64,000 nucleotides of DNA. Origin: Leptothrix discophora (lineage in GTDB: Bacteria; Pseudomonadota; Gammaproteobacteria; Burkholderiales; Burkholderiaceae_C). The stretch spans positions 439,794-503,793 of the forward strand of contig NZ_JAUZEE010000002.1 in the NCBI RefSeq assembly GCF_030705305.1, given 5' to 3'. A program made the position numbers and the translations under genes. This document shows positions 27,639 to 33,223 of this stretch, in pieces (the first letter of the stretch is position 1; every line of letters starts with the position of its first letter). The notes beneath the pieces were generated by a model that was not told where the DNA came from, did no database searches, and saw only the letters and a list, made by a program, of their open reading frames with translations.

Positions 27639-28226
27639 TCAGATCCGGCGGTAGTGGCCGGCCTGGCCGGTGCTGTCGACGGCCAGCCGGTCGAGCAGGC
27701 GCTCGGCGTCGTCCTCGACGACCAGCATGCCGGCCTGTTCGGCCGAGACGAAGCCCTCGGCCTGGGTCCGCTGCATGAAGTCCAGCAGCGGCTGCCAGTA
27801 GCCGGCGACCTCCAGCAGCGCAACCGGCTTGTCGTGGTAGCCGAGGTGGCGCCAGGTCCAGACCTCAAACAGTTCCTCGAGCGTGCCGATGCCGCCAGGC
27901 AACGCGACGAAGGCGTCGGAAGCCTCGGCCATGCGCTGCTTGCGCGCATGCATGGTGTCGACGACGTGGAGTTCCTGCAGGCCGCGGTGGCCGACCTCGC
28001 GGCGCATCAGCGAGTCGGGAATGACACCGCAGACCTGCCCACCAGCGGCGAGCGCCGCATCGGCGACCTGTCCCATCAGGCCGACGTTGCCGCCGCCGTA
28101 GACCAGCCGCCAGCCGCGTCGAGCGATGGCCGTGCCGAGCGCCCGTGCGGCGTCGGCGTAGGCGTCCTGCGCGCCCAGGCGCGATCCGCAGTAGACGCAG
28201 ATGCTGAAGGGGCGGGCGGGGCTCAT
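27639..28226 (-). CDS. LOG-family protein (nucleotide 5'-monophosphate phosphoribohydrolase type)
   Basis: The 195-residue product has FSICVYCGS at its N-terminus, [15 protein letters not shown], the MHARKQRM element and the PGGIGTLEE motif that define the LOG/TIGR00730 family. Members cleave nucleoside monophosphates to base and ribose 5-phosphate; in bacteria they are usually housekeeping enzymes despite the plant cytokinin name. AGGA lies eight bases before ATG 28226, 10 bases after the dgkA stop. Confidence 0.9.
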
Positions 28227-28236
28227 CGGTCGGTCC

Positions 28237-28617
28237 TCAGACCATGAAGCGCTGCCACAGCGCCGAGGCCCAGATGCCACCGCACAGCAGCAGCGCCAGC
28301 ATGACGGCGGCGCTGCCAAAGTCCTTGGCGAGCTTGGACAGGTCGTGCAGCTCGAAGGAGATGCGGTCGATCGCGGCCTCGATGGCCGAGTTCAGCAGCT
28401 CCACGATCATCACCAGCACGATGCTGCCGGCCAGCAGCGCGATCTCGACCCAGCCCCGGCCGAGCCAGAAGGCCGCCGGGATCAGCGCGAGCGCCAGGAC
28501 GGTCTCCTGGCGGAAGGCGCTTTCGTTGCGGAAGGCGGTGCGCAGACCGCTCCAGGAATAGCCCGCGGCATGGATGACGCGATCAAGGCCAGTGCGGCCC
28601 TTGTGGGGATTCGACAT
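28237..28617 (-). CDS. dgkA: Diacylglycerol kinase DgkA
   Basis: The 126-residue membrane protein has the conserved N-terminal [11 protein letters not shown] segment with catalytic Glu, three hydrophobic helices and the signature [14 protein letters not shown]. It phosphorylates diacylglycerol to phosphatidic acid, recycling lipid left from glycan or lipid head-group transfer. The chosen ATG (28617) fits family length; an in-frame ATG at 28662 would add 15 residues. It precedes the LOG gene by 10 bases and follows the RDD gene by 66 bases. Confidence 0.92.
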
Positions 28618-28683
28618 GGGGTGCGATTGTGCCAGCGGGTATCCGGTCATCCGGCCTGGCACCGGGCCCGCGTCAGCCTGTCT

Positions 28684-29262
28684 TCAGCGCCTGGCCGGAC
28701 GCGGTGGCGGCGTGCGGCGGACCAGCTCGGTGCCGCAGATCACGTCGTGCAGGAACTGCCGTCCCGGCAGCACCTTGCTGAGCGCGGCATAGGCCAGCAC
28801 GCCGACCGTGAGGGCGCTCCAGAACCCACCCGAACCCTGCGCCAGGCCGGTCAGCCAGACGAACAGCAGCGCCGGCAGGAACCACAGCCAGCTGGTGACG
28901 TAGCGCAGCGCGGCGCGCGGCAGGCCAAGCGGCGCACCGCCGGCTCGGCGCAGCTGCAGGTGCCAGGTCTTCATCGCCAGCGTCTGCCCGCCGTGGGTCC
29001 AGAAGCCGATGAAGTACAGGCCGAGCACGAGGAAGAGGTAGAGCTGGAACTCGTGCCGGCCCTGCAGCGCATGGCGCTGGTTGGTCAGCGCGGCATAGGG
29101 GATGGAGGCGGCCATCAGCACGCCGAAGAGCAGCACGCCCTCGTAAACCATCGCCGCGAGACGGCGGCGCAGCGGCGGGATGTCGGCGTGGCCGGTGTCG
29201 TCTGGCGAACCGGCACCGTGCCGACCCTGTTCAGGGCCGGTCTTGTCGAGGACGCCGCTCAT
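28684..29262 (-). CDS. RDD-family membrane protein
   Basis: The 192-residue product has several hydrophobic segments (GVLLFGVLMAASIPY, LYLFLVLGLYFIGFW, and a C-terminal pair) and the RDD arrangement: an Arg-rich PPLRRRLAAMVYEG start, QTLAMKTWHLQL and the C-terminal RQFLHDVICGTELV. Function of most RDD proteins is unknown; some transport ions or compatible solutes. Its ATG overlaps the DUF3106 stop as ATGA, so it is translationally coupled to it and belongs to the sigma-DUF3619-DUF3106 unit. Confidence 0.85.
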   Translation of the reverse strand: MSGVLDKTGPEQGRHGAGSPDDTGHADIPPLRRRLAAMVYEGVLLFGVLMAASIPYAALTNQRHALQGRHEFQLYLFLVLGLYFIGFWTHGGQTLAMKTWHLQLRRAGGAPLGLPRAALRYVTSWLWFLPALLFVWLTGLAQGSGGFWSALTVGVLAYAALSKVLPGRQFLHDVICGTELVRRTPPPRPARR

Positions 29263-30050
29263 GGCTGGCGGCTGGCGGCGGCGGCCGGTGGGACGGCCTT
29301 GCGTGCCGGCTCGATCGCGGCGCCCTGCGGGCCGCGCTGTGGCAGCAGCGTGGTGCTGTCGATGAACCCGGGCGTCGCGGCGATCTTTGGCAGGCCGGGT
29401 TGCTGGTGGCGCGGCGGCAGGGCGCCTTGCGTGATCGGGCGGGTGCTGGCGCCGACGGGCGCCTTGACGGTGCCGGGTCCGACCGGCTGCGGCTTGCCGC
29501 TGGGCTGCGGCGCCTGGGCGCTCTTGGTCGCGGCGGGCTCGATGCGGGCGGGCGGGCGGGCCGTGTCGGCTGCGGCCGGGCGCTGCTCGGCCTGCTTGAG
29601 CAGGGCCTCGCGCTGTTCGGTCGGCAGCGACTGGTAGGCGTCCCAGCGGGCCTGGCGTTCGCTGGCCGGCACCTGGCGGACCTGCTCGAACTGCAACCGC
29701 GCGGCATTGCGCTGGGCCGGCGACATGGCGGCCCATTCGGCCATGCGCGAGGTGGTGCGGGCCTGCTGGTCGGCCGTCATGGCGGGAAATCGCTCGGCGA
29801 TGTCGCGCCACTTCTGCTTGCGCACGGCGTCGATCGTGCCCCACTGCTCCTTGAGCGGCTGCAGCGTCTGCTGTTCGCGGGCGCTCAGTTCGGACCAGGC
29901 CGGATTGCCCAGCACCTGTGCCTGCGCCAGCGCGCTCAGGCTGCCGCCGAGCACGAGGGCGAGCAGCCAGCGGTGGGCGGCTCCGGGTGTGCGGGTCGGA
30001 CGGATCGTGGTCATGGACGAAGGGGAGTCGGGCAGGGCGGCGTGCCTCAT
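29259..30050 (-). CDS. DUF3106 exported protein
   Basis: The product carries a signal peptide (WLLALVLGGSLSALAQAQ) and then a helical region with repeated Trp/Gln/Arg-rich segments: WSELSAREQQTLQPLKEQW, MTADQQARTTSRMAEW, MSPAQRNAARLQFEQV, LPTEQREALLKQAEQ. This pattern recalls CpxP/LTXXQ-type periplasmic sensors, but homology is not proven. The second half is Pro/Ala-rich and probably disordered. The start at 30050 overlaps the DUF3619 stop as ATGA; an ATG at 30014 gives a more compact signal peptide. It may bind misfolded protein or metal and report to the membrane partner. Confidence 0.78.
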   Translation of the reverse strand: MRHAALPDSPSSMTTIRPTRTPGAAHRWLLALVLGGSLSALAQAQVLGNPAWSELSAREQQTLQPLKEQWGTIDAVRKQKWRDIAERFPAMTADQQARTTSRMAEWAAMSPAQRNAARLQFEQVRQVPASERQARWDAYQSLPTEQREALLKQAEQRPAAADTARPPARIEPAATKSAQAPQPSGKPQPVGPGTVKAPVGASTRPITQGALPPRHQQPGLPKIAATPGFIDSTTLLPQRGPQGAAIEPARKAVPPAAAASRQP

Positions 30051-30589
30051 TCGCGCATGTCGTCGGCAGTGGTCGCGGCAACCGGTTCGGCCGCCGCGTC
30101 CAGCGGATGGCCGGCCTGCGGCTCAAGCAGGAACTCGACGAAGCCCGGATCGGTGAAGGCCGCCGGCGGCAGGTCATCGCCCAGCAGCGCGCTGTCGATG
30201 TCGGCGGTCGTGGCGATCTGCTCGCGCTCGCGCCAGTGGCTGATGAACAGCAGGCCGATCAGCAGCAGCAGGATGGGCACCAGCTTGCCCAGCGCAGCCA
30301 GGCGAGGCGGCCGGTTCTCGGGGGCGGCGTCGGGCCAGTGCATCGCGGCGCTGCCGTTGCCAACCATCACGACCTCGTCGGCCGCAGCAGTTGTCTGTGC
30401 CATCTTGAGACGGCGAGCGGCGGCGCGCTCGAGCGCCTGCTGGCGCGCCACGCGAAGGCGCTCGGTCACGTCATGGGGAAGTGTCTGCGAGCCCTCGTTC
30501 AGGCGCGCGGTGACGCGCAGGCCGAAACGGGCCTCGAGGGCTTCGGCCTCGAGGGGGTAGGCGGATCGGAGGATCGGACCGGAGTTCAC
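30047..30589 (-). CDS. DUF3619 single-span membrane protein, candidate anti-sigma factor
   Basis: Starting at a GTG that overlaps the sigma-factor stop as GTGA, the 180-residue protein has a cytosolic N-terminal part (about 1-100) with charged helices (LEARFGLRVTARLNEG, ERLRVARQQALERAAARRLKM), one transmembrane helix (about 101-119, GKLVPILLLLIGLLFISHW) and an acidic periplasmic tail. This architecture and the overlap with a sigma gene resemble RseA-like anti-sigma factors, but no known anti-sigma motif was recognised. The call as regulator is inference; the family itself has no assigned function. Confidence 0.75.
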   Translation of the reverse strand: MNSGPILRSAYPLEAEALEARFGLRVTARLNEGSQTLPHDVTERLRVARQQALERAAARRLKMAQTTAAADEVVMVGNGSAAMHWPDAAPENRPPRLAALGKLVPILLLLIGLLFISHWREREQIATTADIDSALLGDDLPPAAFTDPGFVEFLLEPQAGHPLDAAAEPVAATTADDMRE

Positions 30590-31179
30590 AGCGAGATTCC
30601 CTTGAGCTTCAATGCCTTGGCCAATGCATGAACGGCCCGCGAGCAATGCGTCTTCACGCTTCCCTCGGAGCAGCCCATCGCGGTCGCCGTTTCGGCAACA
30701 TCCATTTCTTCCCAGTAACGAAGCAGGAAGGCCTCGCGTTGACGCGTGGGCAGCTTCGCGATCTCGTCCTCGATCAGATGGAAGGTCTGGGTCCGTTCGG
30801 CGGTGTCGGCCGAACTCTCCACGCGGTGCGAACCGGACTGGTCGGCCAGCATCTCCAGGATGTCGAAGTCGCCGTCGCTGCCGGCGGGTTCGAAGTCGGA
30901 GAAGACCGTGAGCACCCCGCGCCGCACCTTCTGGTGGCGGAACCAGTCCATCGTCGCGTTGGACAGGATGCGCTGGAAAAGCAAGGGCCATTCCGCCGGC
31001 GGCCGGTCGGCATAGCGCTCGGCCAGCCGGATCATGGCGTCCTGCACGATGTCCAGGGCAGCGTCGTCGTCACGGACCGCATAGACGGTGCGTTTGAAGG
31101 CGCGCTTCTCGATGCTCTGGAGGAAGTCGGACAGTTCCAGTTCGGCGGCCAAGTGTGCGGGGCCGGATGGCCGTGTCAT
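30586..31179 (-). CDS. ECF-like RNA polymerase sigma factor
   Basis: The 197-residue protein has sigma region 2 (LDIVQDAMIRLAERYADRPPAEWP, then WFRHQKVRRG, residues about 43-88), an acidic spacer of about 45 residues, and sigma region 4 (AKLPTRQREAFLLRYWEEMD, helix-turn-helix to GSVKTHCSRAVHAL, about 140-190). Regions 1 and 3 are missing, as in ECF sigma factors. It likely directs RNA polymerase to a small regulon in response to an envelope signal. Divergent from ilvB; a TGCCATAAT extended -10 ends 11 bases before the ATG (31179), so the mRNA may be almost leaderless. DUF3619 overlaps its end. Confidence 0.9.
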   Translation of the reverse strand: MTRPSGPAHLAAELELSDFLQSIEKRAFKRTVYAVRDDDAALDIVQDAMIRLAERYADRPPAEWPLLFQRILSNATMDWFRHQKVRRGVLTVFSDFEPAGSDGDFDILEMLADQSGSHRVESSADTAERTQTFHLIEDEIAKLPTRQREAFLLRYWEEMDVAETATAMGCSEGSVKTHCSRAVHALAKALKLKGISL

Positions 31180-31189
31180 GTCGACTTGG

Positions 31190-31198
31190 ATTATGGCA
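31190..31198 (-). promoter_or_regulatory. Extended -10 of the sigma-factor operon
   Basis: TGCCATAAT reads toward the sigma gene and lies so close to its ATG that transcription would start about four bases before it. No -35 match is seen. The same nine bases occur in the opposite direction at 31256-31264. Confidence 0.45.
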
Positions 31199-31255
31199 CC
31201 GGGCTGGGGCGGGACCGCACCGGGAGGCAGCGGCGGAGGGCCGCTTCCGGCGAGA

Positions 31256-31264
31256 TGCCATAAT
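31256..31264 (+). promoter_or_regulatory. Extended -10 of the ilvB transcript
   Basis: TGCCATAAT is the mirror copy of the sigma-operon element and faces ilvB, giving a leader of about 170 bases. The palindrome at 31272-31287 would fall at the very start of that RNA. Confidence 0.4.
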
Positions 31265-31271
31265 TCACGGT

Positions 31272-31287
31272 TCCGCACACGTGCGGA
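31272..31287. promoter_or_regulatory. 16-bp inverted repeat in the ilvB leader
   Basis: TCCGCACACGTGCGGA is a seven-pair inverted repeat with a two-base centre, just downstream of the putative ilvB -10. It could be an operator for a dimeric repressor or an RNA hairpin. No leader peptide rich in Ile, Val or Leu codons was found in the leader. Confidence 0.5.
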
Positions 31288-31441
31288 CCTGGTCACTTCG
31301 CTCGCCCGACCCCGGGTGACGCCGATTTCTGACCGCGCAGGCCCTGATTCCGCTCCACGAGAGCGAGTGCCCGTTTTGACGTAGGGCGCGCGAGGAGGGG
31401 CACCGTTCGATTTTCGTCAGAGAAAACCCGAAAGGTTCGAC

Positions 31442-33223
31442 ATGGACATGTCTGCAGCGGAACACAAGCGTGCCGCATCGGCACAAGCCTCCCGCGACTC
31501 CTCTTCCACGCCCGAGCTCAACGGCTCGGACATCCTCGTTCGCTGCCTCCAGGCAGAGAACGTCAAGTACATCTGGGGCTACCCGGGTGGCGCGGTCCTC
31601 TACATCTACGACGCGCTCTACAAGCAGGAAACCATCCAGCATGTGCTCGTGCGCCATGAGCAGGCTGCGGTGCATGCCGCCGACGGCTACGCCCGTGCGA
31701 CCGGCGACGTGGGCGTCGCGCTCGTGACCTCGGGTCCGGGCGTCACGAATGCCATCACCGGCATCGCGACGGCCTACATGGACTCGATCCCGATGGTCAT
31801 CATCACCGGCCAGGTCCCGACCCCGGCGATCGGCCTGGATGCCTTCCAGGAGTGCGACACCGTCGGCATCACGCGCCCCATCGTCAAGCACAACTTCCTG
31901 GTCAAGGACGTGCGCGACCTGGCGCTGACGCTGAAGAAGGCCTTCCACATCGCCCGCACCGGCCGTCCCGGTCCGGTCGTGGTCGACATCCCGAAGGACG
32001 TCTCGCTGAACAAGACCTCGTTCAGCTACCCCGAGACGGTCGAGATGCGCTCCTACAACCCGGTGCGCAAGGGCCACGGCGGCCAGATCCGCAAGGCCGT
32101 GCAGCTGCTGTTGGGCGCCAAGCGTCCGTACATCTACACCGGCGGTGGCGTGATCCTTGGCAACGCCGCGCCAGAACTGCGCGAGCTCGCCGACCTGCTC
32201 GGCTACCCGGTCACCAACACGCTGATGGGTCTGGGCGCGTTCCCGTCGACCGATCCGCGCTTCCTGGGCATGCTGGGCATGCACGGCACCTACGAAGCCA
32301 ACATGACGATGCAGCACTGCGATGTGCTGATCGCCATCGGCGCACGCTTCGATGACCGCGTGATCGGCAACCCGAAGCACTTCGCCTCGGTCGAACGCAA
32401 GATCATCCACATCGACATCGACCCGTCCTCGATCTCCAAGCGCGTCAAGGTCGACATCCCCATCGTCGGCGACGTCAAGGACGTGCTGCAGGAACTGATC
32501 AGCCAGATCCGCGAGACCCAGCAACGCGCCGAGCCCGCCGCGATCAATGCCTGGTGGGCGCAGATCAACGAGTGGCGCAAGACCGAGTGCCTGAACTACA
32601 AGAAGTCGGACGAGGTCATCAAGCCCCAGTCGGTCGTCGAGAAGCTGTGGGAGCTGACCCGTGGCACCGAGACCTACGTCACCTCCGACGTCGGTCAGCA
32701 CCAGATGTGGGCGGCGCAGTTCTACCGCTTCGACGAGCCGCGTCGCTGGATCAACTCCGGCGGCCTGGGCACGATGGGCGTGGGACTGCCCTACGCGATG
32801 GGCATCAAGCTCGCCAAGCCGGATGCAGACGTGTTCTGCATCACCGGCGAGGGCTCGATCCAGATGAACATCCAGGAGCTCTCGACCTGCCAGCAGTACA
32901 ACACGCCGGTCAAGATCATCGCGCTCAACAACCGCTACCTGGGCATGGTGCGCCAGTGGCAGCAGCTGGACTACAGCGGCCGCTACTCGCACAGCTACAT
33001 GGACGCGCTGCCCGACTTCGTCAAGCTGGCCGAGGCCTACGGCCACATCGGCCTGAAGATCGAGAAGCCGTCCGAGGTCGAGCCGGCGCTGAAGGAACTG
33101 CTCCGCCTGAAGGACCGCACCGTCTTCCTCGACGTGCGCACCGATCCGACCGAGAACGTCTGGCCGATGGTCAAGGCGGGCAAGGGCATCAGCGAGATGC
33201 TGCTGGGATCCGAAGAGCTCTGA
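31442..33223 (+). CDS. ilvB: Acetolactate synthase large (catalytic) subunit
   Basis: The 593-residue enzyme condenses two pyruvates, or pyruvate and 2-oxobutyrate, in valine, leucine and isoleucine synthesis. Visible are the N-terminal NGSDILVRCLQAENVKYIWGYPGGAVLYIYDAL, the catalytic Glu region HEQAAVHAADGYARATG, and the C-terminal thiamine diphosphate motif ITGEGSIQMNIQELSTCQQYN (GDG-like). GAAAGG lies seven bases before ATG 31442. ilvH follows after 153 bases and ilvC after that, the usual order in Burkholderiales. Confidence 0.96.
   Translation: MDMSAAEHKRAASAQASRDSSSTPELNGSDILVRCLQAENVKYIWGYPGGAVLYIYDALYKQETIQHVLVRHEQAAVHAADGYARATGDVGVALVTSGPGVTNAITGIATAYMDSIPMVIITGQVPTPAIGLDAFQECDTVGITRPIVKHNFLVKDVRDLALTLKKAFHIARTGRPGPVVVDIPKDVSLNKTSFSYPETVEMRSYNPVRKGHGGQIRKAVQLLLGAKRPYIYTGGGVILGNAAPELRELADLLGYPVTNTLMGLGAFPSTDPRFLGMLGMHGTYEANMTMQHCDVLIAIGARFDDRVIGNPKHFASVERKIIHIDIDPSSISKRVKVDIPIVGDVKDVLQELISQIRETQQRAEPAAINAWWAQINEWRKTECLNYKKSDEVIKPQSVVEKLWELTRGTETYVTSDVGQHQMWAAQFYRFDEPRRWINSGGLGTMGVGLPYAMGIKLAKPDADVFCITGEGSIQMNIQELSTCQQYNTPVKIIALNNRYLGMVRQWQQLDYSGRYSHSYMDALPDFVKLAEAYGHIGLKIEKPSEVEPALKELLRLKDRTVFLDVRTDPTENVWPMVKAGKGISEMLLGSEEL

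Follow-up and report, generated by a model that had tools for sequence, protein, structure and literature searches.

The CnrH-CnrY-CnrX system of Cupriavidus metallidurans consists of a sigma factor, a small inhibitor with one membrane span and two cytoplasmic helices, and a periplasmic helical protein. The first helix of CnrY lies on region sigma 4 of its partner and the second on sigma 2 (PMC7406223). In the SigAb-AabA-AabB system of Acinetobacter, the activity of the sigma factor SigAb, described as Acinetobacter-specific, is lowered by AabA, strongly by the cytoplasmic part of AabA alone, and by AabB; SigAb responds to copper, and models place AabA on the sigma factor in the manner of CnrY, with AabB surrounding the periplasmic end of AabA (PMC12153292). 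The stretch of Leptothrix discophora DNA analysed here (contig NZ_JAUZEE010000002.1; 64,000 nucleotides, hereafter the window) was found to carry, on the minus strand at 28684-31179, the genes of a sigma factor, a DUF3619 protein, a DUF3106 protein and an RDD membrane protein, in this order and each pair overlapping. The first three constitute one module which is a widely distributed relative of the SigAb switch and not new in kind, and which is likely to act as a transmembrane sigma switch related to SigAb-AabA-AabB.

Results

The first gene of the set (30586..31152) encodes an extracytoplasmic function (ECF) sigma factor of the family NF006550 (PRK09047), matched at 266.8 bits against a curated cut-off of 173 bits; region 4 scores above its Pfam cut-off and region 2 reaches 16.1 bits against a cut-off of 24. 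The best matches of this sigma factor are in Albitalea, Rhizobacter, Ideonella and other members of the Burkholderiales, hereafter the order. The GTG start of the DUF3619 gene (30047..30589; PF12279, 126.1 bits) overlaps the sigma stop as GTGA at 30586-30589, and the DUF3106 gene (29259..30050; PF11304, 101.7 bits) and the RDD gene (28684..29262; PF06271, 52.9 bits) follow through ATGA at 30047-30050 and 29259-29262, respectively. Thus the overlapping four-gene layout and the sigma factor proposed in an earlier note on this DNA are real, while the start of the sigma gene, placed there at ATG 31179, is more probably the TTG at 31152-31150, since the positions before this codon show no conservation.

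A protein search of plasmid records with the sigma factor of the window returned four records, all from Acinetobacter baumannii (39% identity, E at most 1e-24). The PLSDB records NZ_CP104448.1, NZ_CP077849.1 and NZ_CP064203.1 (3.7-4.1 Mb), which carry a sigAb-like match, are filed as plasmids and look like chromosomes. In one A. baumannii locus (L302) a sigma factor, a hypothetical protein and a DUF3106 protein are annotated in overlapping genes, the sigma factor scoring 236.7 bits with NF006550, above the cut-off, and the third protein 38.1 bits with PF11304, and GTCAAC, 17 bases and CGTT were found upstream of the sigma gene. This sequence is the promoter mapped for sigAb (PMC12153292), and the locus was taken to be the sigAb-aabA-aabB operon because of the overlapping layout, the sigma and DUF3106 families and this promoter; SigAb itself is annotated from an upstream ATG. 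The window therefore shares with Acinetobacter an NF006550 sigma factor and three overlapping genes in the same order, of which the second encodes a one-span protein and the third an apparently exported DUF3106 protein. It differs in that AabA is not recognisably a DUF3619 protein by sequence, that the Acinetobacter operon has no RDD gene, and that SigAb has its own promoter, which is absent from the window and, among 238 loci of the order, precedes the sigma gene in only 2. Since the SigAb-type promoter is thus not characteristic of the order, the module was classed as a related switch and not as the same system.

The sigma family of SigAb is wider than Acinetobacter, as 218 of the 300 genomes searched in the order contain it (E up to 1e-40, every call above the NF006550 cut-off). 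In separate searches of the same genomes DUF3619 was found in 215 and DUF3106 in 217. Comparison of the genome lists by eye gave 214 genomes with both the sigma factor and DUF3619, 4 with the sigma factor only (G001, G004, G093 and G298), 1 with DUF3619 only (G200) and 81 with neither. These five exceptions are accounted for by divergent copies and one assembly gap: in the first four genomes a divergent DUF3619-like open reading frame (ORF) directly follows the sigma gene (L309-L312; small search, E 3e-3 to 3e-9), and the sequence just ahead of DUF3619 in G200 consists of N. DUF3619 and DUF3106 occur together in 210 genomes, DUF3619 without DUF3106 in 5 and DUF3106 without DUF3619 in 7; two of these 7, G001 and G093, are among the sigma-only genomes above, three (G042, G227 and G242) have only weak DUF3106 matches, to other-looking proteins (L317-L320), and in the remaining two, G128 and G218 (L315 and L316), DUF3106 follows a DUF3619-like ORF with no recognisable sigma factor. 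The independent occurrence of the families that would speak against a module was hence not seen for the sigma factor and DUF3619, was confined to few genomes for DUF3106, and was evident for RDD.

In L315 and L316 the ORF before DUF3106 may be a natural fusion: what looks like the remnant of a sigma factor (E 0.25 in L316; no match reported for the L315 ORF) is joined to a membrane span and a DUF3619-like tail. The proteins of L317-L320 contain repeated LTPEQR-like stretches, a hint of a wider group of related helical proteins. A genome of the window's own family that is listed as complete, G048, gave no sigma, DUF3619 or DUF3106 match, indicating whole-module loss.

Gene order was compared in loci fetched from 160 of the 300 genomes, a non-random set taken from listed matches and drawn mostly by the DUF3619 match (G097 was skipped, having a stop inside its match). 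Together with the window, 138 of 161 loci have the order sigma-DUF3619-DUF3106-RDD, far beyond chance; of the remaining 23, 20 are without RDD and 3 have other reduced sets, partly at contig ends. The sigma and DUF3619 genes overlap as NTGA in 142 of 160 loci. In 80 loci of named relatives, found by the sigma factor, DUF3619 and DUF3106 are present in all and RDD in 76. By its Pfam model DUF3619 is nearly confined to the order: of 299 genomes across the phylum it matched 21, of which 20 belong to the order and one is a marginal case outside it. DUF3106 extends further: at E 0.01 it was detected in 90 of the 276 genomes searched from the class. The Pfam cut-off was exceeded in 76 of these, two of which belong to the window's own family. 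Of 29 DUF3106 loci outside the order, 28 have the sigma factor upstream and 26 are matched by an in-house DUF3619 profile (E < 0.05); a tail like that of the window protein was recognised by eye in 26 of 28 anti-sigma ORFs, the others being one wrong-frame pick and one poor case. In 20 of 28 outside-order loci (among L272-L301 except L291) an additional small protein, exported by its looks and with an LLEFLG-like stretch, is encoded between the anti-sigma ORF and DUF3106. Neither DUF3619 nor DUF3106 was found mentioned in the open-licence PubMed Central literature.

The topology described earlier for DUF3619, a charged cytosolic part, one span and a periplasmic tail, recurs across 241 homologues, 234 of which have one strong hydrophobic span, with a median net charge of +4 before and -6 after it. 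In the AlphaFold2 model of the window protein, helices 12-34 and 39-73 (30371..30556) are followed by a loose linker and by a long helix, 96-137, through the membrane, the span being placed by family hydropathy at about residues 103-119 (30233..30283). The mean predicted local distance difference test (pLDDT) score is 74.1 and the predicted template modelling score 0.32, and block pLDDT is 92-94 in residues 21-60. This layout is that of class II factors such as CnrY. No class I or zinc anti-sigma domain was seen in DUF3619, the window protein having two cytoplasmic helices and no Cys, and the DUF3619 profile, searched against solved structures, gave no CnrY match and no RseA chain among the matches listed. 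The module follows the logic of RpoE-RseA-RseB of Escherichia coli, with a cytoplasmic sigma factor, a membrane anti-sigma factor and a periplasmic stabiliser (PMC12153292), but differs from it in that RseA has a class I domain (PMC7406223). On account of the same place, overlap and topology as AabA, the two confidently modelled helices and the near-perfect co-occurrence with the sigma factor, DUF3619 is very probably an anti-sigma factor, as the earlier note had supposed.

The DUF3106 protein looks exported, as a hydrophobic stretch starts within the first 35 residues in 203 of 239 homologues. The two best kept parts of DUF3619 are an RLxxAR stretch of the second helix and the tail beyond the membrane (residues 130-154; 30128..30202), with the pattern DxDxxLLxDDLPxxAYxDxGF. 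The first 17 columns of this tail were scored with a profile trained on proteins from DUF3106 loci, and sigma and RDD proteins served as decoys (highest score 1.2). All 243 proteins from loci with DUF3106 kept the tail, scoring above every decoy, though one of them, L231, has an assembly gap of N at this place and is to be disregarded. Of six proteins from loci without DUF3106 one kept it (Fisher p 7.8e-10); these six derive from three families only, so that independent losses of the tail are few. Kept tails with DUF3106 scored at least 16 and lost tails -23 to -1; the tail is lost in L306-L310, whose genomes show no DUF3106, and L165 was excluded from the loci without DUF3106 as its contig ends there. 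This correlation is the best evidence for an action of DUF3106 on the tail, and DUF3106 is a probable partner of the DUF3619 tail by this sequence criterion. The earlier suggestion of DUF3106 as a periplasmic sensor is thus sustained as regards partnership, given also the anti-SigAb activity of AabB, and not as regards sensing. Its likeness to CpxP was not borne out: LTXXQ matched 7 of 52 DUF3106 homologues at a best E of 0.0023, a level that unrelated families also reach, TetR_C_24 matching 21 of 52 (best E 0.001), and neither PF07813 nor PF13801 was among the matches listed for the DUF3106 protein of the window at E up to 1.

The start of the sigma gene was the new and unexpected part of the analysis. 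When 239 sigma genes of the order were aligned on a conserved ELSxFL stretch (L150 was unalignable) and the codon five ahead was scored, this homologous start was CTG in 108 loci, TTG in 86, ATG in 40, GTG in 4 and CAA in 1. The window does not fall outside the common starts, as it has TTG, though CTG is the most frequent codon in the whole set. CTG accounts for 108 of 158 loci in the broad order sample, whereas among the 80 named close relatives TTG was found in 72 and CTG in none. Outside the order, the homologous position in 26 scored loci is CTG in 15, TTG in 1 and no start codon in 10; 14 of the 15 CTG loci have a Shine-Dalgarno match, and 5 have no alternative start before the upstream stop.

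Shine-Dalgarno matches (at least 4), counted with the CAA row omitted, precede CTG in 79 of 108 loci of the order (27.0 in shuffled sequences), TTG in 14 of 86 (8.5) and ATG in 3 of 40 (4.6); a cruder count gave 55, 8 and 0. The weakest codon thus goes with good Shine-Dalgarno sites and the strong codons with poor ones, a link inseparable from descent: the start codon changed 11 times on the sigma tree, 8 times between CTG and another codon, and only 2 or 3 supported independent pairs were available (sign test, median p 1). The overlapping DUF3619 start, in 233 loci, is ATG in 195, GTG in 30, CTG in 5 and TTG in 3, preceded by a Shine-Dalgarno match in 201 (68.2 in shuffled sequences).

Upstream of the sigma gene, TGnnATAAT occurs within 150 nucleotides in 58 of 211 loci of the order (shuffled mean 1; 211 of 240 sigma genes were scored), and a wider extended -10 pattern in 153 (shuffled mean 15.85); in the window an extended -10 like element, TGCCATAAT, lies at 31190..31198 on the minus strand. 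Outside the order the SigAb-type promoter was found in 11 of 26 loci (0.0 in shuffled sequences), and the same dyad tops an unguided count. In the genome of the window, sites of this type (GTCAAC, 15 to 17 bases, CGTT) are not enriched, with 11 against 10 for a reversed control. As the operon in the order mostly lacks a SigAb-type promoter and an extended -10 element is often present, its transcription probably depends on the housekeeping sigma factor and not on its own.

The commonest words upstream of the sigma gene resemble, in our reading, parts of the leader and the -35 of the divergent acetolactate synthase large subunit gene ilvI (31442..33223, plus strand; Pfam domains of thiamine pyrophosphate enzymes). 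This gene is divergent in 71 of 71 named-relative loci with RDD and enough flank, and in 51 of the same 71 the diacylglycerol kinase gene dgkA (in the window 28237..28617, minus strand; PF01219, 116.1 bits) is next on the same strand; it may belong to the transcription unit of the module. No Rfam match at the gathering threshold was obtained in 28000-32500.

Discussion

The arrangement of the module suggests the following mechanism. The two cytoplasmic helices of DUF3619 would retain the sigma factor at the membrane, in the manner of CnrY with CnrH, and DUF3106 would bind the conserved periplasmic tail of DUF3619 and stabilise the inhibited state. Envelope stress may disturb this contact, upon which DUF3619 would release the sigma factor or be cut, and the freed sigma factor would direct transcription. 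The operon itself would depend on the housekeeping sigma factor, and the inhibitor would be made in excess because the sigma start is weak (TTG here, CTG or TTG in most relatives) and the ATG or GTG start of DUF3619, usually with a Shine-Dalgarno match inside the sigma gene, is stronger.

Several observations weigh against this mechanism and against the kinship with the Acinetobacter switch. Mean-field direct coupling analysis of 214 joint rows (effective number 168) showed no enrichment between the sigma factor and DUF3619, with 1.33 couplings over z 4 per 1000 pairs against 1.69 for the sigma factor and DUF3106, which are in different compartments. AabA shows no significant sequence match to DUF3619: PF12279 did not hit it, hhalign aligned the two with a probability of 7.9% over 19 residues, and a combined profile gave 6.6 bits and E 0.25, though this score was reached by none of 500 shuffles. 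To these are added the absence of a recognisable sigma factor in G128 and G218, and, for the tail, the gap in L231, the training of the score on DUF3106 loci, the restriction of the six loci to three families, and L305, which keeps its tail (12.7) though its genome shows no DUF3106. Finally, the inhibition of SigAb by AabB alone (PMC12153292) is not predicted by the simple scheme. The top coupling between DUF3619 and DUF3106 (z 8.5) was not used, as its table of D/E against M/L resembles shared descent.

That last inhibition, together with the spread of DUF3106 beyond the order and the missing coevolution signal, would agree with DUF3106 as the main negative regulator and DUF3619 as an anchor or adaptor needed by the sigma factor, for instance a signal-transmitting activator. 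Such a division of roles is quite improbable, since the cytoplasmic part of AabA alone strongly inhibits SigAb (PMC12153292), DUF3106 looks exported, and the six loci without DUF3106 retain a sigma factor and a DUF3619-like gene. Metal sensing of the CnrYXH kind, with DUF3106 as the direct sensor (of copper in Acinetobacter), is unlikely as well: the copper response of SigAb (PMC12153292), the layout of sigma factor, small one-span inhibitor with two cytoplasmic helices and periplasmic helical protein shared with CnrYXH, and the weak resemblance of 15 of 52 DUF3106 proteins to Metal_resist (best E 0.015) point to it, but Cys or His exceeds half of the sequences in no column of DUF3106, Met does so in just three (0.9, 0.59 and 0.67, the first near the N-terminus), and the DUF3106 profile finds no CnrX or CpxP chain among solved structures at E up to 10. 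As to the RDD protein, which the earlier note had taken for an effector or channel, it follows DUF3106 in most loci of the order, its start overlapping as NTGA in 37 of 139 loci, but 29 outside-order loci, covered with flanks of about 1.5 kb, and the Acinetobacter operon showed no RDD gene beside the module, and it is missing from 25 of 241 loci of the order (21 of 161 and 4 of 80, some of the 21 being truncated at a contig end or at the limit of the fetched sequence). RDD is an addition to the module, and its role as effector channel of the pathway is unsupported and very doubtful.

A further alternative concerns the sigma start itself, namely an in-frame initiation site further upstream, the Leu encoded by CTG or TTG being purely structural. 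Going upstream, an in-frame ATG, GTG or TTG is met before a stop in 50 of the 108 CTG loci (ATG in 22), and one more reaches the edge without a stop; in the other 57 the upstream stop is reached without any of these codons. At the homologous position 238 of the 239 loci have NTG (ATG or GTG in 44), and NTG occupies each of the seven preceding positions in only 1-3%. CTC, CTT, CTA and TTA were never seen there, although CTG and TTG make up only 61% of the internal Leu codons of the sigma genes, so the bias at this position is not that of Leu usage. With the enrichment of Shine-Dalgarno matches ahead of CTG, an upstream start is extremely unlikely, and CTG or TTG is preferred as the initiation codon.

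A comparable design is known from Streptomyces, where sigR has a GTC start repressed by initiation factor 3 (IF3), the overlap with rsrA is ATGA, rsrA has a site of its own, and the RsrA protein is present in excess (PMC5472188). The module resembles SigR-RsrA in the weak sigma start, the ATGA-type overlap and the anti-sigma gene with its own ribosome binding site, and presumably in the excess of inhibitor; it differs in the codon (CTG or TTG, not GTC), in a membrane inhibitor instead of a redox-sensitive zinc anti-sigma factor, and in the sigma family. A sigR-like design appears to have evolved in the present module with different codons, and repression by IF3 would follow by analogy. Tentatively, and with some doubt, the switch between sigma factor and inhibitor may be set by poor initiation (194 of the 239 loci in the order have CTG or TTG, and 15 of the 26 scored beyond it have CTG), such that proofreading by IF3 would fix the ratio of sigma factor to inhibitor and initiation fidelity would be an input of the envelope response. 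If true, this would be a second, independent invention of the sigR-type design, perhaps with some of the most deeply kept CUG starts. No literature joining a CUG start codon with a bacterial sigma factor was found in open-licence PubMed Central. The pattern is unusual by comparison with the rarity of switches to CUG reported in PMC5622118, 2 among 61,358 ancestral AUG starts.

The analysis gives DUF3619 and DUF3106, two families of unknown function, a testable joint role, and links a regulator thought to be specific to one genus, Acinetobacter, with a switch present in most sampled genomes of a whole order. The conserved CUG or UUG start of the sigma gene offers a natural test of whether weak initiation keeps anti-sigma factors in excess.

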